Source: a virus. Taken from it: DNA of 35,521 nt. The notes beneath the pieces are model-generated. The model worked only from the letters and a program-made list of their open reading frames with translations. It ran no database searches and was not told the origin of the DNA. Made by a program: the position numbers and the translations under genes. The stretch's first letter is position 1. Every line of letters starts with the position of its first letter. Positions 13,740-33,749 of this stretch are shown here, in pieces. The stretch is taken from positions 1 through 35,521 of the IMG/VR virus record IMGVR_UViG_3300028548_002865; one strand, given 5' to 3'.

Positions 13740-14262
13740 AACAGATTGCAATAAGTGTGGTGACTTTCTTGAAGACAGTAACTGGAACCCTTCTTTTAAA
13801 AGAAAGTCCCTTTACATCTGTCGTACTTGCAACCACCCTAACCGTGCAACTATTAACCCGAAGAGCAACCCGCTTAGAATGTTTGTTAACGGCAGGTATG
13901 TTTCTAAGTCCCACCCGTTGTATAAGGCGGGACGTTACTCTAGCTTTGGAGCTGCTGCATTCTCTGCGCTTGAAGGCTACGAAAAATCTATCGCGGGCTA
14001 TGTGTATGTTATCTCGAACCCCTCGTGGGAAGGCTGGTTCAAAGTTGGAATGGCTGTTGATGCATATGATAGATGCTCTCAGTACCAGACCTCCTCACCT
14101 TTCAGAGATTATGAAGTAGAGTATTGCAAACACTTTGAAGACAGAAGAAAAGCTGAAGGTGTTGCACATAAGCTATTGAAAAATGTAGAGCATAAAGGCG
14201 AATGGTTTAACACAGACCTGAGCGTTATAAAGAATGCAATTAAAACAATAGAAGGCGTATAG
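13708..14262 (+). CDS. free-standing GIY-YIG-type nuclease with zinc finger
   Basis: 184 residues. N-terminal zinc finger C14-x2-C17...C38-x2-C41. C-terminal domain opens GYVYVIS (97-103), then WFKVGMAVDAYDRCSQYQ, RKAEGVAHKLL and GEWFN. This matches the T5orf172/GIY-YIG nuclease fold seen in phage homing-type endonucleases. It overlaps the polymerase end by 32 bases. It could be a selfish element or a functional phage nuclease. The order of Cys finger then nuclease is typical of mobile endonucleases, but no intron was seen in its neighbours. Confidence 0.8.
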   Translation: MLETTGVKLIKTDCNKCGDFLEDSNWNPSFKRKSLYICRTCNHPNRATINPKSNPLRMFVNGRYVSKSHPLYKAGRYSSFGAAAFSALEGYEKSIAGYVYVISNPSWEGWFKVGMAVDAYDRCSQYQTSSPFRDYEVEYCKHFEDRRKAEGVAHKLLKNVEHKGEWFNTDLSVIKNAIKTIEGV

Positions 14263-14264
14263 CG

Positions 14265-15122: not shown

Positions 15123-15424
15123 ACAGAAGACGCAGTAAACGCATAGAGCGACAGGCAGAGAGCTTGCTTATTCAGTGGCTCAAGGGTCTACTAACCGAAG
15201 AAGAAGCAGAGAAAGTAAACATGGGCAACTACAAGTCTATGTTGCCTGTACAGACACACTTCATGGCTCAGCGAACGATGTACTTAAACGCCTATCATCC
15301 GAAGTGGCTCAAGCGTAAAATAAAACAGCTTATAAAAATCTTCCCAGCCATTGAAATCGAAGATGTTAACTTGGAGATGATCACATGGAAAGTCAATCAG
15401 CGGTCGTTGGCACCATCCCAATAG
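15119..15424 (+). CDS. hypothetical basic protein, 101 residues
   Basis: ATGA overlap with the exonuclease gene. Strongly basic and helical: RRRSKRIERQAESLLIQWLK, LTEEEAEKVN, PKWLKRKIKQLIKIFP. It ends EMITWKVNQRS. It may contact nucleic acid. Not recognised. The last 40 bases overlap the next small gene. Confidence 0.7.
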   Translation: MNRRRSKRIERQAESLLIQWLKGLLTEEEAEKVNMGNYKSMLPVQTHFMAQRTMYLNAYHPKWLKRKIKQLIKIFPAIEIEDVNLEMITWKVNQRSLAPSQ

Positions 15425-15564
15425 AGGAATTAATAATTCAAGTAGGGCGGTGGTTAAACGCCGACCCTATTAACTCTATTACTGAAATAGATTCTTGGAT
15501 ACTTAGCGACATACTTGTTGTATTAGATGCAGAACTAGAACGAAGGGAGGCGACAGCACATTGA
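15385..15564 (+). CDS. hypothetical protein, 59 residues
   Basis: GGAGATG lies upstream of ATG 15385, and the stop overlaps the TTG start of endonuclease I (TTGA). The protein is acidic with hydrophobic helices (PIEELIIQVGRWLNAD, EIDSWILSDILVVLDAELE). Too short for many gene finders, but packed exactly like its neighbours. Function unknown. Confidence 0.65.
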   Translation: MESQSAVVGTIPIEELIIQVGRWLNADPINSITEIDSWILSDILVVLDAELERREATAH

Positions 15565-16031
15565 AAAAAGTTAAGAAGGGTTACCGTAAAGCACGGTACA
15601 AACGCCCAGTAGAAAAAGATGTAGTGAAAGGCTATGACTCTAACTGGGAATATGAACTACACTCAGGCATCTTAGAAGCGTGGAGCTTTCACGTTGATAA
15701 GGTTCCTTACACAGTTGACCACAAGTACGAACCAGACTTTGTAAGAGAGATTGACGGGAAGAAGATACTGCTTGAAGCCAAGGGAAGGTTCTGGGACTTT
15801 GCGGAATACAGCAAGTATGTCTGGATAAGCAAGGTTCTCCCAGATGATATTGAGCTAGTGTTTTTGTTTGCTAACCCTAGCGCCCCGATGCCTCAAGCTA
15901 CAAGACGTAAGGACGGGACAAAGAGATCTCACGGAGAGTGGGCAAGCTCCAAAGGGTTTAGGTGGTTCAGCGAAGATAGCATACCAGACAGTTGGATCAA
16001 CACAGACAAGCGAGAAACTTTCGATGACTGA
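15561..16031 (+). CDS. endonuclease I, T7 gp3-like Holliday junction resolvase
   Basis: 156 residues from a TTG start with GGGAGG nine bases upstream. Catalytic set E30 (SNWEYEL), D59 (YEPDFV), E72 and K74 (LEAKG) aligns with T7 gp3 E20, D55, E65, K67. The later SHGEWASSKGFRW also matches T7's GEW motif. It resolves branched replication and recombination intermediates before packaging and may help degrade host DNA. The stop overlaps the following small gene by eight bases. Confidence 0.92.
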   Translation: MKKVKKGYRKARYKRPVEKDVVKGYDSNWEYELHSGILEAWSFHVDKVPYTVDHKYEPDFVREIDGKKILLEAKGRFWDFAEYSKYVWISKVLPDDIELVFLFANPSAPMPQATRRKDGTKRSHGEWASSKGFRWFSEDSIPDSWINTDKRETFDD

Positions 16032-16185
16032 GATAGAGCATGGTAAAGATGAAAGACGAGACAGATACTTGCGCAAAAAGAAAAAGGTTCTGGGTAAGCC
16101 CGAACAAGTTACAGACCGACACAGTGCAGAGCCTTTTAAGCGCAAACGTAATATACCAACCAGAGAGAACTATGATGAGTATTAA
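16024..16185 (+). CDS. small Lys/Arg-rich protein, 53 residues
   Basis: ATG 16024 overlaps the endonuclease I stop. The frame is open further left, but only as a shadow of endonuclease I. The protein is highly charged (KDERRDRYLRKKKKVLGK, EPFKRKRNIPTRENYDEY) and probably unfolded alone. The last 11 bases overlap the DUF3310-like gene. Function unknown. Confidence 0.55.
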   Translation: MTEIEHGKDERRDRYLRKKKKVLGKPEQVTDRHSAEPFKRKRNIPTRENYDEY

Positions 16186-16519
16186 TGACGCAACACCTTT
16201 TGACTGGGATCGCTTACGCCAAGCACATCCGCCGCTTGAGTTAGAAAAGACAGGCTTAGAGCCTTGGGCTACGATGGCAGAGGAAGAGGCAGAAGAAGAC
16301 GTAGTAAACAACCCTAACCATTACAACACTGGCAACGTAGAGTGTATTGAAGCCATTGAAGAGTCGATGACTCCTGAAGCTTTCAGGGGCTACCTCAAGG
16401 GCAACTGCATGAAGTACCTGTGGCGCTATAACTACAAAGGCAAGCCCGTACAAGATCTTCAGAAAGCTCAATGGTACTTAGCTGAACTGATAAAGGAACT
16501 GGTGTTTGACCATGAGTGA
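16175..16519 (+). CDS. DUF3310-like protein, 114 residues
   Basis: ATG 16175 is chosen (16172 is the other possible start) with AGAGAG upstream. The longer frame from 16040 is a shadow of the previous gene. The C-terminal domain (NPNHYN, then GNVECIEAIEESM, FRGYLKGNCMKYLWRYNYKG and DLQKAQWYLAELI) matches DUF3310, a small helical phage domain often found near nucleotide-metabolism genes. The N-terminal part is acidic linker. Its neighbour nrdJ suggests the nucleotide pool, by inference. Confidence 0.8.
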   Translation: MSINDATPFDWDRLRQAHPPLELEKTGLEPWATMAEEEAEEDVVNNPNHYNTGNVECIEAIEESMTPEAFRGYLKGNCMKYLWRYNYKGKPVQDLQKAQWYLAELIKELVFDHE

Positions 16520-16560
16520 TAGCCCTACAATGGTAAGAGCAGTATCCAAATAGGGCAGTT

Positions 16561-16656
16561 ATGGTAAGCAGAGTGATCAGCCTCTGCAAAACAATGCAAG
16601 ATGAACTAGATTTTAAATTACAACATCAAGAATTCAGACGGGACTTAATGCCATGA
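16561..16656 (+). CDS. small peptide, 31 residues
   Basis: AGGG six to eight bases before ATG 16561, and the stop overlaps the next small gene. Sequence MVSRVISLCKTMQDELDFKL then HQEFRRD: a single charged helix. Real gene status is moderate, based on the ribosome-binding site and packing. Confidence 0.4.
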   Translation: MVSRVISLCKTMQDELDFKLQHQEFRRDLMP

Positions 16657-16745
16657 GTGATGTATACTTCTATATCAAGTGGGCAGTAATAGGATTTATA
16701 ATCGGCTGGCCCATCGGTTACGTAATAGGCACATACTTACTATAA
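16653..16745 (+). CDS. small membrane peptide, 30 residues
   Basis: It overlaps the preceding stop by four bases, with GGGAC upstream. Nearly all of it is one hydrophobic helix (IKWAVIGFIIGWPIGYVIG) preceded by MSDVYFY, so it is a predicted single-pass membrane peptide. It ends 18 bases before nrdJ. Function unknown. Confidence 0.5.
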   Translation: MSDVYFYIKWAVIGFIIGWPIGYVIGTYLL

Positions 16746-16763
16746 TAATTTTGAGGAATAACA

Positions 16764-18647
16764 ATGGATCAGTATCAACAGTTTATACACAAGAGCCGCT
16801 ACGCACGATGGATTCCAGAAGAGAAGCGCAGAGAAACATGGCACGAAACAGTCAACCGTTATGTGGACTTCTGGAAAGATCGTGGACAGATAGACGAGAA
16901 GACAGCGTTAAAGTTATTTAATGCAATACATAACCTAGAAGTCATGCCTAGCATGCGTTGTATGATGACAGCAGGTGTAGCACTAGACAAGGATAACGTA
17001 GCAGGGTTTAACTGTAGCTATCTGCACATTGATTCACCACGCAGCTTTGACGAGCTAATGTATGTACTGATGTGTGGTACTGGTGTAGGCTTTAGCGTAG
17101 AGCGCAACTACATAAACAAGCTTCCAGAAGTTGCTGAGAGCTTTCACAAGACCGACAGCGTGATCGTTGTGTCAGACAGTAAGATTGGTTGGGCCTCTGC
17201 CTTCCGTGAGCTTATCGCTATGCTGTATGCTGGTAAGATACCACAGTGGGACACAAGCAGAGTACGTGGTGCAGGTGAGCGTCTAAAGACTTTCGGTGGT
17301 CGTGCTTCAGGGCCAGAGCCATTGATTGATTTGTTTAACTTCTGTATCGAAGTGTTCCAGAAGGCACAGGGTCGTAAGCTAACATCCATTGAGTGTCACG
17401 ATATCGTATGTAAGATTGCAGACATTGTAGTTGTTGGTGGTGTTAGACGTTCAGCATTGATCAGCCTGTCAAACCTTTCGGATCAACGCATGGCTAAAGC
17501 TAAGTCAGGTCAGTGGTGGGTCAATGAAGGACACAGAGCGTTAGCTAACAACAGCGTAGCGTACACTGAGAAGCCTGACTTCCAAGCATTCCTGTCAGAG
17601 ATGCAGACGATGTACGAGAGCAAGGCGGGTGAGCGTGGTATCTTTAGCCGCGTAGCAGCACAGAAGATTGCAGGACGCAATGGCCGCAGAGATGAGACGT
17701 ATGAGTTCGGAACTAATCCTTGCAGTGAGATAATTTTACGCAGTAACCAGTTTTGCAACCTCAGTGAGATTGTTGTACGTGCAGACGATACACTAGAGAC
17801 ACTAAAGGCTAAGTCAGAGATTGCAGCTATCATCGGAACACTACAAGCTACGCTGACAGACTTCCGTTACCTGCGTAACTGTTGGAAGAAGAACACCGAA
17901 GAAGAAGCATTGCTTGGCGTGAGCATGACAGGCATTATGGATCATAAAGTAACCAGCCGCTCTGACGGCTCACCAATGTTAGCTGCGTGGCTAGAGGGAA
18001 TTAGAGATGTTGCTGTGGCTACTAATAAGAAGTGGGCTGAGAAGCTTGGCATTAACCAGTCTGCTGCTATTACGGCTGTTAAGCCGAGTGGTACTGTATC
18101 CCAGCTTGTTGATTCTGCTAGTGGTATCCATCCTCGTTTCTCTGAGTATTACATTCGCCGTGTACGTTCAGACAAAAAAGATCCACTTGCAGTCTTCATG
18201 GAAGAAAAAGGATTCCCAGTAGAACAGGATGTTATGTCTCCAAGCTCTTCAGTCTTTAGCTTCCCTGTGAAGGCTCCAAAGACTTCTGTGACTGTTAAAG
18301 ATGTAGGTGCTATGCAGCAGCTAGAACTTTGGAAGACTTTCCAGAACCACTGGTGTGAGCATAAGCCAAGTATCACTGTTTACTATACAGACGATGAGTT
18401 CCTGCAAGTAGCACAGTGGATCTGGGATAACTTTGACATCTGCTCTGGTATCAGCTTACTTCCTGTCAGTGACCACGTATATCAACAGGCTCCATACGAA
18501 GACATCACGGCTGAGCAGTACAAAGAACTTCTAGCTGCTATGCCAAAGGGTGTTGACTGGGCTGACTTAGGTAACCACGAGAAAGAAGATAACACTACAG
18601 GCTCTCAAGAGTTAGCATGTACTGGTGGCGCTTGTGAAATCGTCTAA
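16764..18647 (+). CDS. nrdJ: class II (adenosylcobalamin-dependent) ribonucleotide reductase
   Basis: 627 residues, single chain, close to the monomeric Lactobacillus type (739 residues). Active site: C84 (FNCSYL), C320 and E322 in NPCSEI, C331 eleven residues on, and a C-terminal redox pair C619/C624 in CTGGACEIV. Spacings equal those of the model enzyme (C408, E410, C419; C731/C736). The PSGTVSQLVDSASGIHPR loop is also typical. It makes deoxyribonucleotides for phage DNA using B12 coenzyme and needs no oxygen or NrdB partner. GAGGAAT precedes the ATG. Presence of this gene is a marker of cobavirus-type phages. Confidence 0.96.
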   Translation: MDQYQQFIHKSRYARWIPEEKRRETWHETVNRYVDFWKDRGQIDEKTALKLFNAIHNLEVMPSMRCMMTAGVALDKDNVAGFNCSYLHIDSPRSFDELMYVLMCGTGVGFSVERNYINKLPEVAESFHKTDSVIVVSDSKIGWASAFRELIAMLYAGKIPQWDTSRVRGAGERLKTFGGRASGPEPLIDLFNFCIEVFQKAQGRKLTSIECHDIVCKIADIVVVGGVRRSALISLSNLSDQRMAKAKSGQWWVNEGHRALANNSVAYTEKPDFQAFLSEMQTMYESKAGERGIFSRVAAQKIAGRNGRRDETYEFGTNPCSEIILRSNQFCNLSEIVVRADDTLETLKAKSEIAAIIGTLQATLTDFRYLRNCWKKNTEEEALLGVSMTGIMDHKVTSRSDGSPMLAAWLEGIRDVAVATNKKWAEKLGINQSAAITAVKPSGTVSQLVDSASGIHPRFSEYYIRRVRSDKKDPLAVFMEEKGFPVEQDVMSPSSSVFSFPVKAPKTSVTVKDVGAMQQLELWKTFQNHWCEHKPSITVYYTDDEFLQVAQWIWDNFDICSGISLLPVSDHVYQQAPYEDITAEQYKELLAAMPKGVDWADLGNHEKEDNTTGSQELACTGGACEIV

Positions 18648-21129: not shown

Positions 21130-21492
21130 TCAATAACACCACATTACAGGAGCTTTGTCAGCTCCGACAATCCTGCTATCCACATGGATGAAAGTACGAG
21201 CGATTCCAACGCCAGTAAATCCCATTTGAATAGCCTGTTCCACGATCTTGTATCTTTGATTTCCGTTACTAACTTTAATATCCGCTGCGATTCCTTGGGC
21301 ATGGGTTCCTGCTTTCTCCTTACGTTTCTCAATTGAGTGGTCTTTACTTCTAAAGCCACTAGTTATGATGAACGGGAACCCGCAAGCCTCTCTGAGTTGA
21401 TCAAGCTTATGAATGAACTCCGCGTCCATCTCGTTGTCGCCAGTTTCTTGGCAATCAAAATCTTCTAGTTTAAAATATTTAAAGTCGCTCAT
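21130..21492 (-). CDS. peptidase M15 endolysin
   Basis: 120 residues. Zinc ligands and acid: H64 in GTHAQGIAAD, D71 and H103 (FIHVD). ITSGFRSKDH precedes them. This is the Peptidase_M15_3 (L-alanyl-D-glutamate or D-Ala-D-Ala endopeptidase) fold that cuts peptidoglycan stem peptides. There is no signal peptide, so export depends on the holin. It starts one base into the stop of the large virion protein. Confidence 0.9.
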   Translation of the reverse strand: MSDFKYFKLEDFDCQETGDNEMDAEFIHKLDQLREACGFPFIITSGFRSKDHSIEKRKEKAGTHAQGIAADIKVSNGNQRYKIVEQAIQMGFTGVGIARTFIHVDSRIVGADKAPVMWCY

Positions 21493-24400
21493 TAGTTACA
21501 GTTCCTTTTAAGTGCGCTGAGAACCTTGCCGCCTGCATTCTTCTGAACCCTTCCCCCCGCTGCCATGTTTAGCGCACGTAAAGGGTCTTCAATGTCCATG
21601 TAAGCTGGCCCAGCACTTTCGTTATACGGCAGCCCTGTAATCTTATTGATGCGTTCATCAGGCTCAGAAGGAGCGTTAGCGACAGGCTTAGATATTTTAC
21701 CGCCTGTAGATTTACGCATCCTTTCCATGCTTTCAAGGGCTTCCTCAGTAGGATACTCAGGTGTGTGTAAAGGAACATTACTAAAAGATTGATAATCAAG
21801 TGACAAATTATGTTGAAGTTCTTCTAGTTCTTCAGAGCTATTAACAGGAGTCTTCATTACTATGCTCAGCATCTTACTTTTTGAAAGCGGCTCAGCCATA
21901 GATACACCAGATGCAAAACCTTCAATTTGACTTTTACTCATCTTAGCATCAAATAACATTTGCATTGTTTGTTCTTTACCAACTAATGTTTCAGCAGCTA
22001 CAATTTTTCTGTAAAGTTCTTGCTCTACTTTATACTTTGCACGTTGTCGTGCGCGGTATCTGTTTTGAAGTTCCTCAGTTGTTTTCTGATAGTCTGGAGA
22101 AGAGCTTACAAGATTTTTTAAACCTCCTTTATAGTCATTAACAGCAAACAACAGAGCATCTGCAACATCTAATTTTTCTAAGTTGACACTGGTTAAATTT
22201 TTCATCAGCTCTCTATTAAGGTCTTTAGTTTTACCAGTAGACCTGTTGCGTTCTCCTGAAGCTACGTCTATTAAATTTACTGCTGACGTAACAGTTCCCG
22301 GAGCTAATCTATCAAACACAAGATATCCTACATTGGCGGCTTTCTCACCGAAACTCATGCCTTCAGGAAACAGCTCTTTTCCTTTAGCTGAGCGACCTGT
22401 AGGGCTAATTACAGCAGACCCAACGTCTGTCAATAAATCAGCTAAGATTGTTTGACTTACAAACGGCTTGACGACAGACGCAGCGGCTTGGAGAGACACA
22501 TCTAATATGCGTGTATTGAGAGCGTCTCCTTCAAGATTCTTACTGAGAAGTTCATTTCTTATTATACGCAGAGGATCTTTAACGGCTGTAAAAGGATCGT
22601 GAGAAGCTGTATCAAAATACAACATATCTCCAGTTTCCTCGTCTGTATGCCATATCCTTGGCGCTACTTTTGACCACGGCTTCTCGGTTAAGATATGTGC
22701 AGCTTTTGCTTTTTCGTCATCGTTACCGAACATAAGTTTTGCAGAGGCTGCTGCACTATAGCCAACGGCTGTGTTTGTAACTGTCATGCCCGCTAGTCTT
22801 TGCGTTCCTCGCGCTACTAAAGTAGCATTACCTGAAGCCATTTCTTTACCAGCTTGACGCAGGATATTTACTTGTACTCTTATACTTTCGGCAGGGAAAG
22901 AAACAAAACTACCAAACGGTAAATCTTTTAAAGCTTTAATTCCAAAAGGTACACGATCATAATTAGCATAAGTGTTTTGAGTAATACGAGCTGCTTCAGC
23001 TTCAAGAACATCTAACGGTTCTCCAGTGTTAGCTTTCTTCAAAGTATCTAGCTCTGATAAAAATGTATTAATTTTATAGTAATCATCTGTTGCAACATAA
23101 ATATCTTCAACACGTTTTAACGCCGTTTCTCCTTTCTGAAAAACTTGTTTATTTATATCTCTACCGTAAGGGACGCTTTCGTCAACCCATTTAAAGCCCT
23201 CAGTTTTTTGCGCTCTATAACCAGTTTCAAGCAGCTCTCTATATTCATTTACTTGTACGTTAGTATTAATGATTCCTAGCCGCAGGTATTTTTCATACGA
23301 CTCATCGAGCGCCGCGTCTCCGCCTTGAACTATAGAGTTTCTCAGGTTTGAAAAAATTTCAAAAGTATCTTTACGCAACGGATTAACGCCATTTGCAGCC
23401 GACATGACTGCACCACCTGTTAAGTTTTTCATGTGGGTCATGTGGCTGTAGACAGTCTTCCATTTTTGAACAGTGCTTTGCACTCCTAGATACTTTCTGT
23501 ATGTTTCGTTTTCTCTGAGCTTTCCTATTTTACCTTGCTTATCTTTAATAGCTGTCAACATTTCTTTGCTTGTGTACATGCCATCTAGCTCAGAATTAGT
23601 CCCTGTTATTTTTTCACCGTACATGCCGTCAGGATCAGGGGATTCAGCTTTTCGGATGTACCCGCCCGATTCTCCTAAGTCTTTGAGAGTCCCAAAAAAT
23701 TTATTTGTTTCAGCCAGCTTTGTCATTTTACTAACTGTCAATATAATATTTTCTGAGGGTTCTTTTATTTCACCCATGAAAGCTCTAATTTCGTCTGGAA
23801 TATCTTTACGCCCTGTAAGCATCGCAGTGTTTACTTTTCGTATACGCTCTAAATAATTAGCAGTATCTTTTAGGTCGTTGTCAGTTAGCAGATCTTTTAA
23901 AAAAGTGTCAGCTTTGTTAAATGCAAACTCTTCAGAAAGATCAGGATCATTATTTTGAAACTGTTTAATTAAAAAATCTCTAGCGTCTTCGGTCACATCA
24001 TCAGAAGGGACATAGCCTTTATCTTCATATAGACGATAAGACCTTCTAAGATACTTTCCAGCTCCTTCTACAATTGCTTCTTTAAGATCATCGGGAACAG
24101 CCGAAGAATTAACAAGATCTTTAGACAGCCCGTCAATCTGATTTCGTGCGTTGACCAGTTCAGTTGCAATGTTTTTAGGCAGGTTAAATTGATTAACTAC
24201 ATCGCTTACTTGATCTTCAAAGCTCCACCCTTTACCAAAAGTAATATCAAGGCCATCATCAAAAAGACTTTGAACAGTTTCTAATACTTGCGGGCCTTCG
24301 TTAGTTTCAACAATATCGTCTAAGTGTTTTTGTAATCTATTAGCTGTATTTTCAGCTTTAGCAATTTGCTGGCGCTGTGCATGCATAGAGTTTTCATAAG

Positions 24401-25535
24401 CGTTATACGCATTTTTAGACCAGTACCCACGGCTTTGAAAAAACTGATTAGTCATTCTTTTTAACTTACTGCTAAAAGAGTTGCCGTTTTGCTGTGCCAT
24501 TTGTTTTGCTGCTTCAGGAGTTTCTTCGTATACAATACGGCCTTCGGTTTTTCCTAGGTCAGTTGTAAACTCAGCCTCGTCAAAATAAGAATCTTTTGTA
24601 CGAGGAGAAACAACAGACCCTAGTTTCCCTACTGCGGCAGTGACAGGTTTAAGTACAACATCTACACCTTTACCAACAGTCTTAGTTGATATGTCTTTAG
24701 CGGCTTTTAAATGCTCCATCATTATCTGGCCTTTTTCTGTATTTGTAAGCTTTGATACTTGCTTACCAAACAGTTTAGAAGACCACCAAGTTAACTTAGC
24801 CGCTCCACCTACAACTTCACCCAACACGCCAAGAGTCATTTCTTCGCCTACAAGCTTTAAACGCTTTTCAAGTTGAGTGTCGTCTTCGTCTATAGCCATG
24901 AACGAAACAAAATCATTTTGTAAGTTAGGAGGAAGCAACTCTTCGGCTACATTAAACAGGCTTTCAGTATCAGGATCAGCTAGTATTTGAGTAACGGCTG
25001 TAGCTCCTACTAGACCTTTACGAAACGTAGAAAGATCTTTAAGTTTTTTCATTATCGCAACGCGCCAAGCGCCTGCAATATAAGGTGCTACGCCCAGCAC
25101 CGTGCCCGCTGTTGTTTCAGTGTCTTTTATTTCTCCTTCAGGAGTAAACACTGCTTCGCCTGTAAGAGCTTGTAGCGGTGCCATGTTTTGTTTAGTGCGT
25201 AACTTAGACAGTACTTCATATTGGGCAGCTTTATTTTCAAAACCTAACATCCCTTTAGCTTCTTCTGCCATTTGCTTTACATTAACTATTAAATTAACAG
25301 GGTCTAAGTTTTCAGCGGTGTCAGCTACTACTCTGCCAACGTCAGCAAAAAAACTAGGCTCGTTCTTTTCTTCTACTTGTACAGTATCTACAGGTGCAGA
25401 AGGTGCGGGAGGCAGTGCTCTTAGATTTGTAAGTTGTTCGCTTGTTAGTGCAGTAGGCGCAGCAGGCGTTTTAGTTACAGGCGCTGCTGTGGGCAACGCT
25501 CTGAGAGCTTCAAGTTGTTCAGGTGTTAACGACAT
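21492..25535 (-). CDS. very large virion-type protein, 1347 residues
   Basis: Size and position (late block, next to lysis) fit a podovirus internal or ejection protein. N-terminus: two LTxEQLxxLRALP units at residues 3-15 and 30-42 joined by a Pro/Ala linker. The centre is helical, with no transglycosylase or catalytic motif I could identify. C-terminus has three GG[KR]-[IV] sites (1278, 1327, 1335) and ends KRNCN. It may be an ejection protein that enters the host with the genome. It could instead be an unrecognised tail or lytic protein. Function is inferred from context only. Confidence 0.75.
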   Translation of the reverse strand: MSLTPEQLEALRALPTAAPVTKTPAAPTALTSEQLTNLRALPPAPSAPVDTVQVEEKNEPSFFADVGRVVADTAENLDPVNLIVNVKQMAEEAKGMLGFENKAAQYEVLSKLRTKQNMAPLQALTGEAVFTPEGEIKDTETTAGTVLGVAPYIAGAWRVAIMKKLKDLSTFRKGLVGATAVTQILADPDTESLFNVAEELLPPNLQNDFVSFMAIDEDDTQLEKRLKLVGEEMTLGVLGEVVGGAAKLTWWSSKLFGKQVSKLTNTEKGQIMMEHLKAAKDISTKTVGKGVDVVLKPVTAAVGKLGSVVSPRTKDSYFDEAEFTTDLGKTEGRIVYEETPEAAKQMAQQNGNSFSSKLKRMTNQFFQSRGYWSKNAYNAYENSMHAQRQQIAKAENTANRLQKHLDDIVETNEGPQVLETVQSLFDDGLDITFGKGWSFEDQVSDVVNQFNLPKNIATELVNARNQIDGLSKDLVNSSAVPDDLKEAIVEGAGKYLRRSYRLYEDKGYVPSDDVTEDARDFLIKQFQNNDPDLSEEFAFNKADTFLKDLLTDNDLKDTANYLERIRKVNTAMLTGRKDIPDEIRAFMGEIKEPSENIILTVSKMTKLAETNKFFGTLKDLGESGGYIRKAESPDPDGMYGEKITGTNSELDGMYTSKEMLTAIKDKQGKIGKLRENETYRKYLGVQSTVQKWKTVYSHMTHMKNLTGGAVMSAANGVNPLRKDTFEIFSNLRNSIVQGGDAALDESYEKYLRLGIINTNVQVNEYRELLETGYRAQKTEGFKWVDESVPYGRDINKQVFQKGETALKRVEDIYVATDDYYKINTFLSELDTLKKANTGEPLDVLEAEAARITQNTYANYDRVPFGIKALKDLPFGSFVSFPAESIRVQVNILRQAGKEMASGNATLVARGTQRLAGMTVTNTAVGYSAAASAKLMFGNDDEKAKAAHILTEKPWSKVAPRIWHTDEETGDMLYFDTASHDPFTAVKDPLRIIRNELLSKNLEGDALNTRILDVSLQAAASVVKPFVSQTILADLLTDVGSAVISPTGRSAKGKELFPEGMSFGEKAANVGYLVFDRLAPGTVTSAVNLIDVASGERNRSTGKTKDLNRELMKNLTSVNLEKLDVADALLFAVNDYKGGLKNLVSSSPDYQKTTEELQNRYRARQRAKYKVEQELYRKIVAAETLVGKEQTMQMLFDAKMSKSQIEGFASGVSMAEPLSKSKMLSIVMKTPVNSSEELEELQHNLSLDYQSFSNVPLHTPEYPTEEALESMERMRKSTGGKISKPVANAPSEPDERINKITGLPYNESAGPAYMDIEDPLRALNMAAGGRVQKNAGGKVLSALKRNCN

Positions 25536-25549: not shown

Positions 25550-27067
25550 TTATAATGAATCTATAAAAGCTTTAGCGGCGGCAGGGTCTGCATTATCTAA
25601 GAGTGCTTGATCTGCTGGCGTTAGCGTATTCCATATTACAGGGTCTACTTTATAAATATTTGTAGTTAAAGCTACTACAGGGGATGGTGAGCTGCTCAAC
25701 CCTGGAGGAACTCCAGCCACAGGAGAGCGTGGAGTTATACCTTTACTTCTTAGGTTTTCTCCGTATTCTGCTGCTACTGCTGCGTTAGTGTTCCACCTGT
25801 TATAATTTTCTTGTATTTTTTTCTGCTGGGCTTTGTACTCTGGACTACCTGCTTTATAATTACTTAACGATGCAATTAATGTAGATATACTTGCTGAATC
25901 TGTATATTGGTTTGCTAGTGTTGTTGTTAAAACTCCATCTTGAAATTTATCAACAAGATTAGAAGTGTTTGTTATGTACTTACTAAGCAGGCCAGCAATA
26001 TTAGAATATTCTTGAGGAGTCTTAATATTCATAATGTTCAAGTTTAACTTATCTTGAACTTCTGCAACAAAGTTAGAAAGAGCAGAAGTTTTAAGAAGAC
26101 CTTTTGCTTCCTTTGCTAAATTGTTAGTTACTTGCATAGCGTCAGCAGCATCTCTCAACCCTTCTGGACTATCAGTAAAATCAGTAATAACTTCTTGTGT
26201 TACAACTGTATCTGTTTCGTCAGTTATTGTATTTATTGTTTCTGTAGTTGTAAATTTAACTGCTCGTTCACTTACTACTTTTACTTCTTCTGTTTTGTTT
26301 ACCTTTAGGGTCGCTGTTTCATTTGCTATTGCTTCTAAGTCTTCAGCACCTATAGCGGTTGCAAAGTTATACGAAAGTAAAACATCTTTAGTTTGTGCAT
26401 ACCGCTTATCAAAAGCTTGCATAGCTTCGGCGCTTTTAGCCATGTCTCCAGTACGAATAGCTGACATTACTTCAGCGTCTTGTTCACTTTTTGACTGGCC
26501 TTTAAAAAGTCTGGTAGCTCCCCCAAGTATTGCACCACCCACAGTACTAGGACGAGCTTTATCTAGTTTAGAAGATAGCTCTGTATTGTAATCTTCAAAT
26601 GTTCCAATACTTTGTGAAAGTTTATAGCCTTCTTCTTGTTCTCTTGCTCGTTGTTCTGCTAAAGGTGTAAGTTGTTTTTTTATAAACTGATCTAGAAGTC
26701 TTTCGTCTCCTGCGATGTCAAGCCCTAGTGTAGGGAGAAGACCCGCTTTATATTTAGGTTTCATCTGATCATAATAATATGATGCACCGCCTTGCCCGCT
26801 TTTTAAGATTAAAGCTTGTTCATTAGCCAGCTCTTCTTTGGTATTAACGGCTGATTTATACTTTAATTTTTCTGCCATTATTTTTTCGTTCTTTTCAAAC
26901 GTAGCTCGCTTAGTTTCAAACACTGACTCAAGTCCAGTTTTAAGGCCCTTCCCTAGAAGTTTAGCAGCAGCATATTTTAAAGCGTTTCTTTCGCTATCTT
27001 TTTTATTTTTTTCATTATCTTTTTTAACATTTGAAAGTAATGATTTTGCAAAGTTATCAATAGCCAT
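25550..27067 (-). CDS. large helical virion-type protein, 505 residues
   Basis: Begins MAIDNFAKSLLSNVKKDNEK, very Lys-rich for 60 residues, then helical with a Gly-rich patch (STVGGAILGGATRLF) and a Thr/Val-rich segment (ETINTITDETDTVVTQEVIT, about 280-300). It ends VIWNTLTPADQALLDNADPA, similar in form to the LTxEQL units of its neighbour. A likely internal virion or adaptor protein by size and strand. No family recognised. Fourteen bases separate it from the 1347-residue gene downstream. Confidence 0.7.
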   Translation of the reverse strand: MAIDNFAKSLLSNVKKDNEKNKKDSERNALKYAAAKLLGKGLKTGLESVFETKRATFEKNEKIMAEKLKYKSAVNTKEELANEQALILKSGQGGASYYYDQMKPKYKAGLLPTLGLDIAGDERLLDQFIKKQLTPLAEQRAREQEEGYKLSQSIGTFEDYNTELSSKLDKARPSTVGGAILGGATRLFKGQSKSEQDAEVMSAIRTGDMAKSAEAMQAFDKRYAQTKDVLLSYNFATAIGAEDLEAIANETATLKVNKTEEVKVVSERAVKFTTTETINTITDETDTVVTQEVITDFTDSPEGLRDAADAMQVTNNLAKEAKGLLKTSALSNFVAEVQDKLNLNIMNIKTPQEYSNIAGLLSKYITNTSNLVDKFQDGVLTTTLANQYTDSASISTLIASLSNYKAGSPEYKAQQKKIQENYNRWNTNAAVAAEYGENLRSKGITPRSPVAGVPPGLSSSPSPVVALTTNIYKVDPVIWNTLTPADQALLDNADPAAAKAFIDSL

Positions 27068-27080: not shown

Positions 27081-27692
27081 TTATGCTTGTTGAAGTGTCG
27101 GCGGGGCCATTAAACTTGGAGCCGCTTCAGCTTGTTCTTGTGGAGCAGCGGGAGGTGCAAGCAAACTTTCAGCAGGGATCACAGGTAAACTCTCAATCTG
27201 CTTCATAATCTTTTGCGGTACTGCGCCCATAGGAACATTTCCTGACTTAGCAGCTTTTTTCAAACCTTCACTTTTTTTAGAATCAAACGTAATACCAAAC
27301 ATTTCTTCTTCGTCAATTTCGTCTTCTTCTTCTCCGCGATAAATAACTACGTCAATATCTGCGCGTTCGGTTAGAGCTAATAAGATGTATGCTAAAGGCT
27401 CTAAAAGCATTATCATCAAATCAGGATTCCACTTACCCCGTTGAAAACCATCAAACAAAATGACCTGCACTAAATCCATTATAGGAGTTTTATTTGCAAG
27501 TGCTTGCATAGTCTGCATGTAGGTTTGTTCTTCAATAATATTTAAAAACAAATACTCAACAGCTTCGTGAACATTATTATATTCTGTCGCTTGTTCATAA
27601 GGCGCAGGACTTTCTGGATCACGAGTTAATGATTGGCCGGGAATCGGACGCTTTCCTTGCGCTATGTACTGTGTGTATGCTTCGTCTGCCAT
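27081..27692 (-). CDS. acidic late protein, 203 residues
   Basis: Helical core: VHEAVEYLFLNIIEEQTYMQ, PIMDLVQVILFDGFQRGKW, LMIMLLEPLAYILLALTERA. A strongly acidic turn (RGEEEDEIDEEEMFG, about 119-133) follows, and the C-terminal third is Pro/Ala-rich and disordered. Despite hydrophobic helices it lacks clear membrane segments. In the late block it may link virion parts. Not recognised. Confidence 0.7.
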   Translation of the reverse strand: MADEAYTQYIAQGKRPIPGQSLTRDPESPAPYEQATEYNNVHEAVEYLFLNIIEEQTYMQTMQALANKTPIMDLVQVILFDGFQRGKWNPDLMIMLLEPLAYILLALTERADIDVVIYRGEEEDEIDEEEMFGITFDSKKSEGLKKAAKSGNVPMGAVPQKIMKQIESLPVIPAESLLAPPAAPQEQAEAAPSLMAPPTLQQA

Positions 27693-27694: not shown

Positions 27695-28993
27695 TTATTG
27701 TCCTAATCTCGATTTAAGGTTGGTTAAATATTCTTTATTCAAGTTGTATTGAGACGCACCGTTTCCCCAAGGATTCAAGTTAAAGAAGTCTTGATTTGCT
27801 GCATATGCTTGCGGATCAAAAGAAGCTGCTCTAGCTGACCTGATACCAGACGTTGCAGCAGTATCTTGAAGCTGTATATTTGACGAAGTTGTTCGATCAA
27901 TGTAGTCTCCCTGTTGATCAATGTTTGCTGCTTTTTTAATGTACTTTGAAGGCAAACCAGTAATTGTAGCAACAGTATCATCAATAGCGTCTGGTATTAT
28001 ATTGCCTGCTTTATCTATAGCGTAAGCTTTAGCCTCAGTAAACTTTTTAGATAAGTAAGACGGATCAGCTGCTTGGCCTGTAACATCTATATTTGATAAA
28101 TCTAACCCTTGTGCATCCATAAGATTAGGCGGTGGAATGTACGTTTGAGTGCTTGCATAAGATGCAGGAGTAAGATCAGGGGTTACAACACTTGTTGGAT
28201 TAGGGGTTACAACACTTGTTGGATCAGGAGTTACAACACTTGTTGTAGTAGCAGTTGTAGCAGTTGCTGGATCAGCTAACAAACTTGTATCAGCAGTCAC
28301 CACAGACGTTTGGCCCGGAGGAAGGTCTGGCCCTGTCGAGGATTTTAAAGTAGACGGATCGGCGCTTGTTAGTCCAGCATCTTCTGGAACAACGCCATCT
28401 ATGTCAGCAAAATCTCCAGTTTTAATATCTGGCTGTGTAGTAGACGCATTTAGTTTAGCCATTGTTTTATCTATGTAGGCTTGACCATATTTATTGTTTC
28501 CGGTAAGTGTGTCCATACTAAATAAATCGTTACCTGCTTTGGCTACATCAAGTACTGCGTTCTGTGCTGTTTTAAAAACATCTCCAAAGTTTGTCATTTC
28601 AGTAATGTCAATTTTATCAAGAGTCAACTCTTTTATAAACTCACCAGCGCCCGGGATTTTATTTAGTACCGTCCCGACAGTTTGCCCGATGACTTTTGTT
28701 ACGCCTTGGGTTACAGTTTTAAACACACTACTTGCTTTTGTGCCAATTTGAATAGCGGCATTTACAAAATGACCTGCGCCAGCAACTAAAGCGTTTGCTG
28801 AACCCATAGCAGTCACCGCCCACGTTCCGAGCATCTGTCCAAGTCCCGGCAAAAGCAAACCTAAACCTATTTGGCCTACAATGCCTAGCTTCCCCATGAA
28901 CTTACCCACGCTTTTAAAAGCAGATTTAATCCCTTTGCCAATTTTCTTGACTGTTTTTTTAACACCTTTCCAAACTTTGCTTAACCAACCCAT
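27695..28993 (-). CDS. virion-type protein with cationic amphipathic N-terminus, 432 residues
   Basis: The first 37 residues (GWLSKVWKGVKKTVKK, IGKGIKSAFKSVGKFM) form a Lys-rich amphipathic helix, like membrane-active peptides. A hydrophobic Gly/Leu segment (LGIVGQIGLGLLLPGLG) follows. The middle is helical. At about 249-272 is a Thr/Pro/Val low-complexity linker with a 24-bp tandem repeat in the DNA. Such N-termini occur in marine phage structural proteins (from memory). A membrane-inserting ejection role is an inference. A SD precedes the ATG. Confidence 0.75.
   Translation of the reverse strand: MGWLSKVWKGVKKTVKKIGKGIKSAFKSVGKFMGKLGIVGQIGLGLLLPGLGQMLGTWAVTAMGSANALVAGAGHFVNAAIQIGTKASSVFKTVTQGVTKVIGQTVGTVLNKIPGAGEFIKELTLDKIDITEMTNFGDVFKTAQNAVLDVAKAGNDLFSMDTLTGNNKYGQAYIDKTMAKLNASTTQPDIKTGDFADIDGVVPEDAGLTSADPSTLKSSTGPDLPPGQTSVVTADTSLLADPATATTATTTSVVTPDPTSVVTPNPTSVVTPDLTPASYASTQTYIPPPNLMDAQGLDLSNIDVTGQAADPSYLSKKFTEAKAYAIDKAGNIIPDAIDDTVATITGLPSKYIKKAANIDQQGDYIDRTTSSNIQLQDTAATSGIRSARAASFDPQAYAANQDFFNLNPWGNGASQYNLNKEYLTNLKSRLGQ
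28177..28248. repeat. 24-bp tandem repeat (three units) coding TSVVTP linker
   Basis: Three adjacent 24-bp units (28177-28200, 28201-28224, 28225-28248). The first two differ at one base; the third is degenerate at its end. Each encodes the 8-residue unit TSVVTPDP or a variant in the 432-residue protein. This is a recent or slippage-prone linker expansion. Confidence 0.75.
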
Positions 28994-29008: not shown

Positions 29009-32000
29009 TTATGATGTAAAGAAACCGTCAACAATACCAACAAGAAGACTAGACGAAGTAGATCCATCTCCACCTTGTGCGCCTGCTTCGTTTCCAAGAG
29101 CAACTGCGTATAGTTGTGTCTTCCGCGTCTCTTCGTTTTCGTATGAAGTCCGTATATAATCTGCTTCGTCTCTAAGCTGCTGCCACATTTGAGTTTGATC
29201 TAACGCAGACATGTTATATGCGTTCTGTACGTTTTGTTGGTTGGCTGCGTTCTGCATAGCCGTATCAGCAGAGTTAGCTTGTCTACGCCATGCAATATTA
29301 GATTGTTCTACTGCTTGAGCGTTGGCTGAGTTCCAAGTGTCGCGCTGAGTCTCAATAGAAACATTAAATTTATCTATGTCTGCATTTAGCTGAGCAGTAA
29401 AAATATCTGCTTGCTGTGTGTTACCAGCGTTAATAGCCTTAACACGGTTAGCTTCGCCTACGTTAAAAGACTCCATAGCATTCCTAGCAGTAGCATTAAA
29501 CTGTTTCATGTTATTTGACTGACTAATTACAAACTGATCTATTTGATTTTGAGACGTAGCTCCAAACTGTTTAGCAGCGTTAACAGCAGCTTGATCAGAC
29601 AACAAAGCTTGTTGCTGCAACTGCTGATCCATTATAATGCCTTGTTGATTGTTGTTTAAATTAGCCATGTCCATAGTCAAGAAGTTCTTAGCATTCTCTA
29701 CTGATACTCTAGTACGTGCATCAGCATTAGCAAGATCAGTCTGCGTTAACATTGTGGCGTTTTGCAAAGCTGATTGTTGTTCTGCACTAAACTTAGTAGC
29801 TGTCATAGTCTGCATGAACTTGCTGTTTGCCATTTCCATTTGTTGCTCGTTGCTCATCTTGCTCATATCAAAGTTAGCGTTCATTTGAGCATTAAACATT
29901 GCTGCGTTTTGCTCATTGCTAAGATTTGCTAAGCCCATTGCTTGAGCAAGCTGTGCGTTAACCTGTCCGGCTTGCATTTTCTTTTCAAAGATTTGAAGCT
30001 GTGCAACATTTTCAGCATTCATGCTTTCTGAATCAGCTTGATTCTGGAACGTCAAGTTAGCAAGCTGTACTTTTTCAGAGGCACTTAACTGGGCCATCTC
30101 TGCGCCCTGTCGTAAGTCCTCGTTCTTAGCCATCATGTTAGTATAAATAGTCAGCTCTTGAAGCTTCATGCGATTAGCTTCAGTCATGTTTGCACTGTCT
30201 GTAGCAGCTCTTTCAGAAAGATTAGCTAGTTCCATCTGTTGCTCGTTATTCAGATTTGCTAAATCCATCTGTTGTGCAAGAGACGCATTGGTCTTTTTAA
30301 AGTCTACAAGAGTATTAAGATTAGTTAAACGCTCTTGGTTTGTAGCAGTCATTGTGTCTTTAGACGCTGCGTTCTGTTCTGTCAAGTTAGACAGCTCTAC
30401 TTGTAGCTCAGTAGATAGGTTGGCTTTCTCCATGTCTTGTGACAACTCAGCTTGGCGCATAGTCCTAGCAATCTGAGCGTTATAAGAAGCAAGCGTAGAC
30501 TGTTGCTCAGCAGTTAAGTTTTGTGACCCAGCAGCATTAAGGGCTTGCAAGTTTGCCAAGTCCATCTGCGCGCCAGTATTCAAGTTAGCAATAGCTGTTT
30601 GCTGACGTTGCGAAGACTCTTGTTGTGCGCGCTGCTGAGCCATTTGAGCGTTAGTAAGGTTAGTTTCTTGCTGTTGTTGTGCAGTAGTCATCACTGCTTG
30701 TTGATCAAACGTGCTTTGTTGTACTTTAATCTGCTGTGCCATGTCTGCTGTTTGAGATGCAGCAGTCTGTTCGTTAGCAAGGTTCTGCATACGGACTTGC
30801 ATAACATTCTGTGCAGTAGACATGTTAGCTTGTTGTTCGTTGCTAAGGTTCTGCTGCGCTCGTTGCTGTAGAGCCTGTGCGTTGCTCTGAGCAATTGGAA
30901 GCGCACTCTGGATGATAGCATTAAATAACGCATCGCGGCCTACAGTGGACGTTGCTAAGCCTCTCTGAGCCATTCTAGCTTCGATGGCTGCAACGGCTGG
31001 TCTAGCCCACGCAGGAGTCTCGCCGTCTTCCATGCCTGCCAACAAGCCTTCCATCTGTGTAGATACAAGAGCTTCTGCTGGTAGAGCTGCAATAGCTGCA
31101 ACTGTTTGTGGATCAGCACCTGAGTCTAGTTGCGCTTCTACGCTTGCAGGATCTTGAGTAATAGCCGCTGTAATTTCTGCGGGCATGTTAGCAACAACTG
31201 CCATCATGTCTGCTGCGGCTGATGTACGCTCTTTGCCTGTAACTGCGCTCATCTGTGCAGCAGCGGCTGTAGGAACACCCCCAATCTGAGAAGCATTACC
31301 TTTAGGCGCTTCGCCTGTAATGGCTTGACGGCCTTCAAAGTCTACAGAAGGTACATTACCTAGTTCATTTTCTACGCGGCTTTTTGCTTGGCCTACTTGT
31401 GCAACACGTTCTCTAGCTAATACAAACTCTGGAATAGCTTCTAGGTCAACACCTTCTGTTGATACAATGTCTAACAGATCTTTTTGCTCTCGATCAGACA
31501 TTGTTTGAGCTATGCGCTGAGCCACTTGAGGATCACGAGCTTCAACGACTTTAAAGCGTTCGTCTGACGTAACGGCAGTTGCGTAGTCTCGTTCTGCTGG
31601 TCGATCTGCGGCTGTTCCCATTGCTGCACGTTCTGCTGCTGCATCGCGTTGAGCTGTTTTAACAGTCGCGGCTGTAGCTTGACCCGCCTCGGCCACTTGG
31701 CTTACTTCGCCTTCAGCAGCGTCAATAGGGCCAAGTTTTCCGCTTACTTCGCTAGCATCGTATGTCTTTGCTTTACCATCACCTAACTCAGCAGTTGCTG
31801 TAGACGCTGTGCCTTGCTTAGCGGTAAAAGTTGAACCATCAACACCATAACCCGCAGAAGCAGTAGGCGAAGGCCCTAGCTTTTCAACGTCTGTAGAAAT
31901 ACCCATAGACTGTAGTTCTTGTTCGGCTACTGCTCCTCTTTGTCCTCCAGCGGCTGCACGTTGTTGTTTAGTATAAATACCATAACCGCCTGCTTGACCA

Positions 32001-32707
32001 ATATCGCTTGGAACAGCCGTCATCTTATCTAGCGTTACGGCTTCAGGAGCGTACCGGTTAACTACAGGAGCTGTGCCTGACCCGTCATAACCACTGCCAC
32101 TACTGCCGCCACTGCCATTGTTACCGCCGCCGCCAGCGCCGTATGAAACACCAAAATTGTTATTTGGACGACCCATGTTTGCTCCTTGATTATTTATTTC
32201 TTGATAATTAATGTTTGATATTTCCTGCGCTATCGCTTCTTCTTGTTCAGGAGTCAACGAGGGCACTGGCTCTGATGTTGGTTCTGGAGTTGCATTAGTG
32301 TTTGAGGAGCTTCCATATCCAGCTCCTGTAGATAATTCATAAACAGGAGCGCGATAGTTCCCAGCCTCATCTAAACCGCCCTCCGATACTAATATAGGCT
32401 CTGCTTCAACAATGACCTCTTCAATTTCAGGTTTAGGTTCAGGTTCAGGTTCAGGGGTAGGCGTTGTCGCTGGGCCTCCGCCATAACCATAGCCTTGTCC
32501 ACCGAAGCCACCTTTCGAGATATCAAAATAATTACTTCCGGGCCTGTAGCCTCCCACATTAGTGGGGTTGTACTGATAGTTAGAAGGCCCGCCACCACCA
32601 GAAGAGCCGTAAGTCACGACTTCGTTTATACTGCCGCCGGAATAAGCCATAGCTCTATAGTTTTTTAGTTTCTTTAAAGCTTTTTTTGCATTTGTTTTTT
32701 TCATCAA
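29009..32707 (-). CDS. giant hendecad-repeat virion-type protein, 1232 residues
   Basis: Residues 1-80 are basic then Gly/Tyr-rich (GGFGGQGYGYGGG). About 80-200 are Pro/Glu- and Gly/Ser-rich, about 200-600 Ala-rich and helical. Residues 610-1192 are 53 gap-free 11-residue repeats (units such as LSNEQQANMST, LNNEQQMELAN, ATARNAMESFN). The last 40 residues end GIVDGFFTS. The repeats predict an 87-nm straight helix or a bundle with 11-residue (three-turn) geometry. In a podovirus late block it may be an ejection, tail-fibre or scaffold component. No known family was recognised. Confidence 0.8.
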   Translation of the reverse strand: MMKKTNAKKALKKLKNYRAMAYSGGSINEVVTYGSSGGGGPSNYQYNPTNVGGYRPGSNYFDISKGGFGGQGYGYGGGPATTPTPEPEPEPKPEIEEVIVEAEPILVSEGGLDEAGNYRAPVYELSTGAGYGSSSNTNATPEPTSEPVPSLTPEQEEAIAQEISNINYQEINNQGANMGRPNNNFGVSYGAGGGGNNGSGGSSGSGYDGSGTAPVVNRYAPEAVTLDKMTAVPSDIGQAGGYGIYTKQQRAAAGGQRGAVAEQELQSMGISTDVEKLGPSPTASAGYGVDGSTFTAKQGTASTATAELGDGKAKTYDASEVSGKLGPIDAAEGEVSQVAEAGQATAATVKTAQRDAAAERAAMGTAADRPAERDYATAVTSDERFKVVEARDPQVAQRIAQTMSDREQKDLLDIVSTEGVDLEAIPEFVLARERVAQVGQAKSRVENELGNVPSVDFEGRQAITGEAPKGNASQIGGVPTAAAAQMSAVTGKERTSAAADMMAVVANMPAEITAAITQDPASVEAQLDSGADPQTVAAIAALPAEALVSTQMEGLLAGMEDGETPAWARPAVAAIEARMAQRGLATSTVGRDALFNAIIQSALPIAQSNAQALQQRAQQNLSNEQQANMSTAQNVMQVRMQNLANEQTAASQTADMAQQIKVQQSTFDQQAVMTTAQQQQETNLTNAQMAQQRAQQESSQRQQTAIANLNTGAQMDLANLQALNAAGSQNLTAEQQSTLASYNAQIARTMRQAELSQDMEKANLSTELQVELSNLTEQNAASKDTMTATNQERLTNLNTLVDFKKTNASLAQQMDLANLNNEQQMELANLSERAATDSANMTEANRMKLQELTIYTNMMAKNEDLRQGAEMAQLSASEKVQLANLTFQNQADSESMNAENVAQLQIFEKKMQAGQVNAQLAQAMGLANLSNEQNAAMFNAQMNANFDMSKMSNEQQMEMANSKFMQTMTATKFSAEQQSALQNATMLTQTDLANADARTRVSVENAKNFLTMDMANLNNNQQGIIMDQQLQQQALLSDQAAVNAAKQFGATSQNQIDQFVISQSNNMKQFNATARNAMESFNVGEANRVKAINAGNTQQADIFTAQLNADIDKFNVSIETQRDTWNSANAQAVEQSNIAWRRQANSADTAMQNAANQQNVQNAYNMSALDQTQMWQQLRDEADYIRTSYENEETRKTQLYAVALGNEAGAQGGDGSTSSSLLVGIVDGFFTS
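29132..30880 (-). repeat. 53 consecutive 11-residue (33-bp) repeats
   Basis: Counting from AQALQQRAQQN, every 11th residue keeps register for 583 residues without one insertion or deletion. Thirty of 53 units end in Asn, and many run L-x-x-E-Q-Q-x-x-L-A-N. Units 15-19, 20-24 and 25-29 also form a higher 55-residue period. DNA periodicity is 33 bp on the minus strand. Confidence 0.9.
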
Positions 32708-32717: not shown

Positions 32718-33749
32718 TTATGATACTTGTTGAAAGTCTAAATCTTTTAAATATACATAAGCAGCTTTTAATGACTCTTCTGTAGCATTTTTCGGAAAAG
32801 AAACTTCGCAACCCTCTAATGTATGGACATACGAAGTATCTTTTGCAAGCTCGTCATATGCATAGTTTTCAGGATAATTTATTTTGAGTTCTGGTAGAAG
32901 AGTATGTTCATGTAGTCTTCCTTGTTTTTCCATCTTCTCTAAAGCTACTGAGTAATCATCCATCCAGTTAAAATCTTGTTTTACTCTAGACTCACGCATA
33001 ACAATCCCGACAGTACGTTCATCATAAATATAAGTAGCGGGCCTTTCGTCCGTAGAATAAAAAGTTAAGTAGCCTTCAAGAGCTTCGTGCTTTAAACGCA
33101 ACATCTGTAATGTATCTTCTCCGATTCTAAGGCTTTCATTAAATCTAAACTTAGCTGCTTCTCGGCTAAACCACGTTACGCGACAATGTATTTCATTGCC
33201 CTCGCTATACTTTTGCTGTCCTTTATAATACTTCAAGTGTAAACTTTCAAAGTACACGGCCTTTTCGTGGCTTAGCCCAGAAGTGTTTTTAAACATGTCA
33301 TAATAATCTACGCTTAGTAAATCTTCATAATCTCCAGTAAAGGGTTGGATAAGCGCCACACCATTTTCATAGTTTCTAAAAGACATCTGTTGTACTAAAC
33401 ACACTGCATCTGGAGGGGTTTCTAAACCTGCTAAGTGTTGATACATCCAAACACCGTGCCTAGTTAAAAAGTCATCTCCGTCTATCAACACACAGTATTC
33501 ATTGTCAGAAGCTAAAAAAATATCAAATACTGAGTTTTTTCCTCTAGCTGGGGTTCCATTACTGCTCGAAACATGATATACTATTCTTTCAGATTTACAG
33601 TAATCCTCTGCTTCCTTTTGATAATCTTTATTTAAAGTATTTATTACTACTTCTATTTGATCTTTAGGAATGTTACTGTATTCTACAGAGGTATGTCTCT
33701 GTAGAGCTTCTAAATTTTCAGACGTAAGTACATAAAACTTAAACTTCAT
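32718..33749 (-). CDS. GT-A type glycosyltransferase-like protein, 343 residues
   Basis: YVLTSENLEALQRHT opens, then a Rossmann-like half (IEVVINTLN), TPARGKNSVFDIFLASDNEY and VLIDGDDFLTRHG, where D90-D93 form the metal-binding DxD motif. The second half is aromatic and less conserved. This is a family 2-type fold. It may glycosylate virion or host surface. It lies between a holin candidate (and the tail spike) and the hendecad protein. Substrate unknown. Confidence 0.75.
   Translation of the reverse strand: MKFKFYVLTSENLEALQRHTSVEYSNIPKDQIEVVINTLNKDYQKEAEDYCKSERIVYHVSSSNGTPARGKNSVFDIFLASDNEYCVLIDGDDFLTRHGVWMYQHLAGLETPPDAVCLVQQMSFRNYENGVALIQPFTGDYEDLLSVDYYDMFKNTSGLSHEKAVYFESLHLKYYKGQQKYSEGNEIHCRVTWFSREAAKFRFNESLRIGEDTLQMLRLKHEALEGYLTFYSTDERPATYIYDERTVGIVMRESRVKQDFNWMDDYSVALEKMEKQGRLHEHTLLPELKINYPENYAYDELAKDTSYVHTLEGCEVSFPKNATEESLKAAYVYLKDLDFQQVS

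Follow-up and report, generated by a model that had tools for sequence, protein, structure and literature searches.

An 11-residue repeat protein with two hydrophobic seams varies in length almost only by 110-residue steps in HMO-2011-type podoviruses

Introduction

HMO-2011-type phages have been reported to be prevalent in the ocean, and we know of no described route by which these viruses, with tails of 9 nm, pass their DNA through the host envelope. The stretch of DNA analysed here (the window, 35,521 nt) is a 35.5-kb IMG/VR record of the HMO-2011/HTVC103P type, which encodes a terminase, a primase-helicase, a DNA polymerase and a ribonucleotide reductase. On its minus strand, which carries the structural module, one gene encodes a protein in which 53 units of 11 residues follow each other without a gap. 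What kind of repeat is this, how is it maintained, and could it take part in DNA passage? New here is an 11-residue phage repeat that has two hydrophobic seams and whose lengths change almost only in 110-residue steps, long 11-residue arrays themselves being already known. The family provides a concrete candidate for DNA passage, together with a testable sequence rule (two seams and an amide face).

Layout of the repeat protein

The protein is divided as follows (coordinates in the window):

29009..32707, minus strand: whole open reading frame of the repeat protein, 1232 aa from TTG 32707 (1231 aa from ATG 32704)
31391..32707, minus strand: hypervariable N-terminal third (residues 1-439), a short Lys-rich start followed by Gly/Pro-rich low-complexity sequence
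31010..31390, minus strand: conserved pre-repeat domain (residues 440-566), 64% mean identity
30881..31009, minus strand: N-anchor (residues 567-609, WARPAVAAIEARMAQRGLATSTVGRDALFNAIIQSALPIAQ...), gap-free, 85% mean identity
29132..30880, minus strand: 53 gap-free 11-residue units (residues 610-1192)
30584..30880, minus strand: constant proximal units 1-9 (residues 610-708)
29924..30583, minus strand: variable array, units 10-29 (residues 709-928), four 55-residue super-repeats
29132..29923, minus strand: constant distal units 30-53 (residues 929-1192), including Phe/Trp at 11-residue spacing
29012..29131, minus strand: short variable C-terminal tail (residues 1193-1232)

The start codon is likely the ATG at 32704, one codon past the listed TTG. 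Conservation is uneven along the chain: the N-terminal third is indel-rich among relatives (mean identity to the window 0.06-0.32), the N-anchor that adjoins the repeats is the best-conserved segment, and distal units 30-53 are the segment common to all distant relatives.

An unbroken 11-residue period with two seams

The first-pass annotation, made from the sequence alone, had placed the repeat at residues 610-1192 with Asn at position 11 and a leading Leu or Ala, and its coordinates, frame and length proved right. Asn occupies position 11 in exactly 30 of the 53 units, and position 1 is Ala in 17 units and Leu in 15. The period it proposed was detected with a composition score of z = 21.1 against shuffles; among periods 2-25, none other than 11 and its multiple 22 had z > 1.8, and the identity autocorrelation peaked at 11, 22, 33 and 44. 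A phase tracker followed a single unbroken phase through residues 605-1166, the final two to three units (1167-1192) matching it only weakly. Tandem Repeats Finder reported no DNA-level tandem array of this kind at 29132-30880, and the repeat is therefore old and maintained at the protein level. The suggested rarity of long gap-free 11-residue arrays did not hold, as there is precedent in the tape measure proteins of two Clostridium prophages, whose 825-residue repeat sections align without gaps on an 11-residue unit (PMC3271669).

Bulky hydrophobic residues fall on positions 1, 9, 7 and 3 (also 10 and 5) and almost never on 2, 6 or 11, charges occupy positions 4 and 8, and Pro and Gly stay at or below 3.5% at each of the 11 positions. 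A classical hendecad coiled coil, as first proposed, is not supported by the hydrophobicity power at the 11/3 angle of 98.2 degrees, which is 0.0 in the window (Kyte-Doolittle) and averages 0.5-2.4, depending on the scale, over 94 homologues; the hydrophobic band at this angle has p = 0.23. Power is instead strong at 130.9 and 163.6 degrees in the window and the 94 homologues, and the 163.6-degree signal implies two opposite seams. Placed on an 11/3 helix wheel, the units display two hydrophobic seams about 170 degrees apart, with a Gln/Ser/Thr face (positions 2 and 6) opposite a charged face (4 and 8) and Asn 11 beside the latter. Seven isolate relatives also have the two-seam pattern with no single hydrophobic face. 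At the level of sequence, the seams are established.

Homologues and length quantisation

A tblastn search with the repeat protein identified 27 phage records and 60 IMG/VR loci, and a profile search more than 560 loci, of which 80 were kept; four homologues came from bacterial assemblies. Proteins with the same phase, for which the first-pass annotation had proposed a search, thus occur far outside the window. The repeat protein received no family assignment from Pfam or PHROGs and is annotated as "hypothetical" in nearly all isolates. One homologue, in MW202701.1 (about 16148-17449), is labelled "huntingtin", an evident mis-annotation that was probably driven by its Gln-rich repeats.

The window's protein carries the traits of the HMO-2011-type repeat family, namely the N-anchor, in-phase 11-residue units and conserved distal units, and its gene lies upstream of ~200-aa, ~500-aa and giant genes. 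HMO-2011 gp25, HTVC103P gp59, MQM1_018, CHOED_013, phiM6_25 and CRP-345 gp44 are true homologues, sharing with it the anchor or the distal units, the period and the gene neighbourhood. They contain fewer units (21-33 among the three for which units were counted) and lack the 55-residue super-repeats. HMO-2011 gp25 also has an extra Cys/Trp-rich C-terminal domain (FCWVAREVYGEGDPRWYAFRIWL...) that is absent from the window's protein.

Repeat lengths were compared across 94 non-identical full-length homologues, measured between two conserved anchors. Relative to the window, they differ by -352, -308, -297, -220, -110, 0, +33, +110, +220 or +330 residues: all 94 differences are multiples of 11, and 90 of the 94 are multiples of 110. 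A tree built from the flanks requires at least 22 length changes, a count that recombination could inflate, and several are forced by well-supported branches, among them the sister loci L007 (0) and L025 (+110). With 110-residue quantisation kept over this many changes, the family shows with unusual clarity how structural phase can constrain the evolution of a protein in nature. Four homologues keep the 11-residue rule and break the 110-residue one, L083, L148, L062 and L063 (+33, -297, -308 and -352, L062 being HMO-2011 gp25), and these may help to test which of the two constraints comes first.

The 29 full-length homologues that match the window in length align without a single gap across residues 567-1191 (625 columns), whereas residues 1-439 of the same proteins show over 900 gap runs. 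The earlier claim that an absence of indels implies strong selection on phase is consequently sustained for the selection and not for the absence: relatives gain and lose 110-residue blocks, and indels therefore do occur, but only in phase.

These blocks are located in the super-repeats, four copies of which make up units 10-29 in the window and about 0, 2, 4, 6, 8 or 10 of which are found in relatives, depending on length. A super-repeat profile built from one half of the same-length group detected no copy at -220, one or two at -110, four at 0, six at +110, seven at +220 (eight slots, one of them sub-threshold) and nine or ten at +330, and the array began at unit 10 in every case. Hence, units 1-9 and 30-53 are constant, and super-repeats are added in pairs. 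Where the array is expanded, the best 55-residue stretches agree to 58-82% at a distance of 110 (in some cases 220) residues, whereas copies 55 residues apart are only 35-49% alike. Judging from this sequence pattern, the 110-residue step could be set by cassette recombination, by a structural need for pairs, or by both.

A late virion gene module

Downstream of the repeat gene, the window encodes the following proteins:

27695..28993, minus strand: next gene, 432 aa, with a cationic/hydrophobic N-terminus
27081..27692, minus strand: conserved 203-aa neighbour with a PIPGQSLT start, homologous to MQM1_020 (E = 1e-17)
25550..27067, minus strand: 505-aa neighbour, whose slot corresponds in size to gp15/gp20-like ejection proteins
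21492..25535, minus strand: 1347-aa neighbour, homologous to gp123 of Cellulophaga phage phi18:3

Gene order was compared between the window, HTVC103P, HMO-2011, MQM1, CHOED, Slicky01, phiM6 and CRP-345. The repeat gene is always the first of the last late block. After it come none to a few small genes and then genes for proteins of ~170-200 aa, 375-650 aa and, as the giant, 815-1670 aa, the set lying at or near the end of the block. Tail-fibre and spike genes adjoin the repeat gene. The late-gene setting first proposed for the protein is thus borne out, in a late virion gene module whose downstream set resembles the gp14-gp15-gp16 operon in sizes and order (PMC8954989). Among the module proteins, only the giant neighbour has a homologue proven by MS/MS: phi18:3 gp123 owes its virion-protein annotation to this evidence, and two further virion proteins (227 and 499 aa) are encoded directly upstream of it. 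This homology identifies the set as a virion module and does not by itself prove the location of the repeat protein.

None of the downstream neighbours matched a Pfam or PHROGs family, and in both the 505-aa slot and the giant slot the window and HMO-2011 encode proteins of different sequence. For the giants (21492-25535, minus strand, in the window; 13211-16597 in the HMO-2011 locus), similarity was not detectable, and the slot has therefore been swapped between unrelated giants. By eye, the 203-aa protein resembles HMO-2011 gp24, and it has the same place in MQM1 and HMO-2011. The 432-aa protein opens with a long cationic, amphipathic to hydrophobic stretch (MGWLSKVWKGVKKTVKKIGKGIKSAFKSVGKFMGKLG...), and its gene includes a recent 24-bp tandem repeat (28174-28275) encoding SVVTPDPT-like units. 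Upstream, a 343-aa protein (32718-33749, minus strand) that matched no Pfam or PHROGs family looks glycosyltransferase-like by eye (CVLIDGDDFLT), and the late module of HTVC027P holds an annotated glycosyltransferase.

Comparison with known phage systems

phiX174 is a tailless ssDNA virus whose 170-A tube spans the cell wall. Like the repeat family, its pilot protein H (PDB 4JPP/4JPN) is an amide-rich helix with hendecads, and the wheel profile of H hendecads 151-183 correlates with that of the family (r = 0.68, permutation p = 0.016), a comparison that involves only three H units; the corresponding value for a Staphylococcus tape measure was p = 0.94. Taken by itself, H shows the two-seam peaks as no more than a trend (p about 0.13). 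In the alignment, family positions 6 and 2 are matched with Gln 1 and Gln 8 of H, which we infer to be inward-facing residues, and the H tube is a decamer with a lumen lined by N/Q/R (PMC7354561). The two differ in extent, H having 3 hendecads followed by heptads within 121 residues and the family 21-83 units, and they share no sequence homology in a profile search of PDB sequences (4JPP/4JPN included), which returned no match at E <= 1.

Siphophage tape measures (TP901-1, Staphylococcus phage 69, Clostridium prophages) share with the family gap-free units that are changed as whole units and, in some of them, aromatic marks at 11-residue spacing. Unlike the family, the two tested tape measures have power of 38 and 46 at 98 degrees and little at the other harmonics. 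Tape measures also carry an aromatic marker in nearly every unit and contain 10-18% N+Q, against 24-36% in the family; both the single-face helix and the aromatic per unit were absent when looked for in the family. Finally, tape measures belong to long-tailed phages, whereas the imaged relatives of the family (MQM1, CRP-9 and CRP-13) are short-tailed.

T7 gp14/gp15/gp16 and P22 gp7/gp20/gp16 come from podoviruses, as does the family module, and share its downstream size order and late-module end, and, as in the T7/P22 arrangement, the repeat gene heads a small-medium-large set of late genes. Neither the repeat protein nor its neighbours belong to a gp14/gp15/gp16-like family in Pfam or PHROGs. 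Period 11 was not found in T7 gp14 or P22 gp7, and P22 gp20 has a short, weak one and no long 11-residue array. By these tests, the repeat protein falls outside the H, tape measure and T7/P22 families, and there are two kinds of 11-residue phage repeat, single-faced in tape measures and two-seamed in this family. This distinction may help to sort many unannotated phage proteins.

Predicted structure and size

AlphaFold models of residues 440-1232 and 567-961 were all-helical with no strand (mean pLDDT 48.6 and 54.4). At this low confidence they agree with the helical fold first proposed over a globular non-helical one. The second model, also of low confidence, runs a single 120-residue helix from the anchor to the end of unit 9 and interrupts the array every 55 residues; Foldseek with this model recovered an uncharacterised viral homologue only, and no solved structure. 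A beta-solenoid, suggested by alternating hydrophobics and an Asn ladder, was set aside on the basis of the scarce Pro and Gly and the strand-free models.

A rise of 1.5 A per residue would give the window's array a length of 87 nm, and arrays of 473-913 residues lengths of 71-137 nm. The straight 87-nm rod of the first-pass annotation found no backing in the models, both of which are low in confidence, break the 55-residue array and neither prove nor exclude a rod. Its remark that an extended rod would be longer than the capsid agrees with the ~70-nm heads of relatives, since MQM1 has a head of 70.6 nm and a tail of 9.2 nm (PMC10410586), and CRP-9 and CRP-13 have heads of about 70 nm and short tails (PMC8528129). 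A straight array of 87-137 nm would therefore not be accommodated as a rod inside such a head; if the head size of the relatives applies, the array must fold, assemble on ejection, or be outside the head. The length of the array relative to the head is the main problem for every model.

Possible functions

The first-pass annotation had listed an ejection conduit, a ruler and a fibre with no choice between them; our results favour a conduit-like role and speak against a tail-length ruler. As our leading, still tentative explanation, the repeat protein is a virion or ejection-module protein, building or lining a helical conduit for DNA with an amide face. Within the ejection module of HMO-2011/HTVC103P-type podoviruses, it would be a virion protein whose repeats form alpha-helices with two hydrophobic seams; since two seams per helix would allow lateral packing, copies are proposed to line up next to each other as a sheet or tube. 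The lumen would be bordered by positions 2 and 6 (Gln/Ser/Thr), and positions 4 and 8 (Glu/Asp/Arg) would point outwards, with Asn 11 by the charged face. On infection, the protein would act like H, providing an amide-faced helical passage for DNA, and its length would be tuned by 110-residue cassettes added or removed with the 11-residue phase kept. The two seams with no single face, the amide-rich composition and the near-absence of Pro and Gly suggest such a conduit, as far as the sequence pattern can indicate, as do the H-like wheel (from three H units only), the late-block position, the gp14-gp15-gp16-like sizes, the virion-type giant neighbour and the phase-keeping length changes. Against it stand the low AlphaFold confidence and the modelled breaks, the lack of similarity to any solved structure, a straight length that far exceeds the phiX tube and is too great for a ~70-nm head, and the dissimilarity of the 505-aa-slot and giant-slot proteins between the window and HMO-2011. 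The more specific proposal of marine dsDNA podoviruses with an H-like amide-lined conduit of two-seamed hendecads, its length set digitally by super-repeat pairs and evolved independently of H and of tape measures, is rather doubtful.

The main rival, which we regard as unlikely, is a folded internal-core or scaffold protein, in which 55-residue helix-turn-helix pieces would stack as a compact bundle or alpha-solenoid in the head with no open DNA tube, super-repeats being paired because two keep the chain direction and the end positions. Such a fold would account for length steps of super-repeat pairs, for the 55-residue period of the AF2 helix breaks and for an array too long to fit the head when extended, and two-seamed helices suit helical sheets. 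The models behind it are nevertheless low in confidence, its turns would contain no Pro or Gly, and they give long uninterrupted helices for units 1-9 and most distal units; the 110-residue step could also arise from cassette recombination, given that similarity is higher between copies 110 apart than between those 55 apart.

An external or axial tail fibre or needle, improbable in our estimation, would place parallel copies in a long rod outside the particle, with the array setting its length. The adjoining tail-fibre and spike genes, an N-terminal third as hypervariable as receptor-binding tips and the free length variation between relatives are consistent with this, but the most widely conserved part is the C-terminal distal repeats and not a tip, no beta-structured or chaperone domain was seen in the protein, two seams are unsuited to a thin trimeric coiled coil, and the description of the MQM1 virion gives only the 9.2-nm tail (PMC10410586). 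Least probable, and by some distance from likely, is a ruler homologous or analogous to siphophage tape measures with aromatic marks every 11 residues. Such units are known in tape measures (PMC3271669, PMC5099701), and distal units of the family do carry Phe/Trp 11 residues apart, up to six in a row in HMO-2011. The strong single hydrophobic face of both tested tape measures, opposite to the family's pattern, argues against this reading, as do the short tails of relatives and the absence of tail tube and tail chaperones among the gene neighbours. A tape measure with 41-A ring spacing (a 27.5-residue modulation) was dropped in view of the short-tailed relatives and of a spectrum opposite to that of the two tape measures.

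Lastly, a small-GG-x-[IV] motif near Lys-rich sequence is present at the N-terminus of the repeat protein (32627-32647, minus strand) and recurs at the C-terminus of the 1347-aa protein (21516-21566, minus strand) and at residues 50-66 of HMO-2011 gp25, and could be a cleavage or packaging signal.
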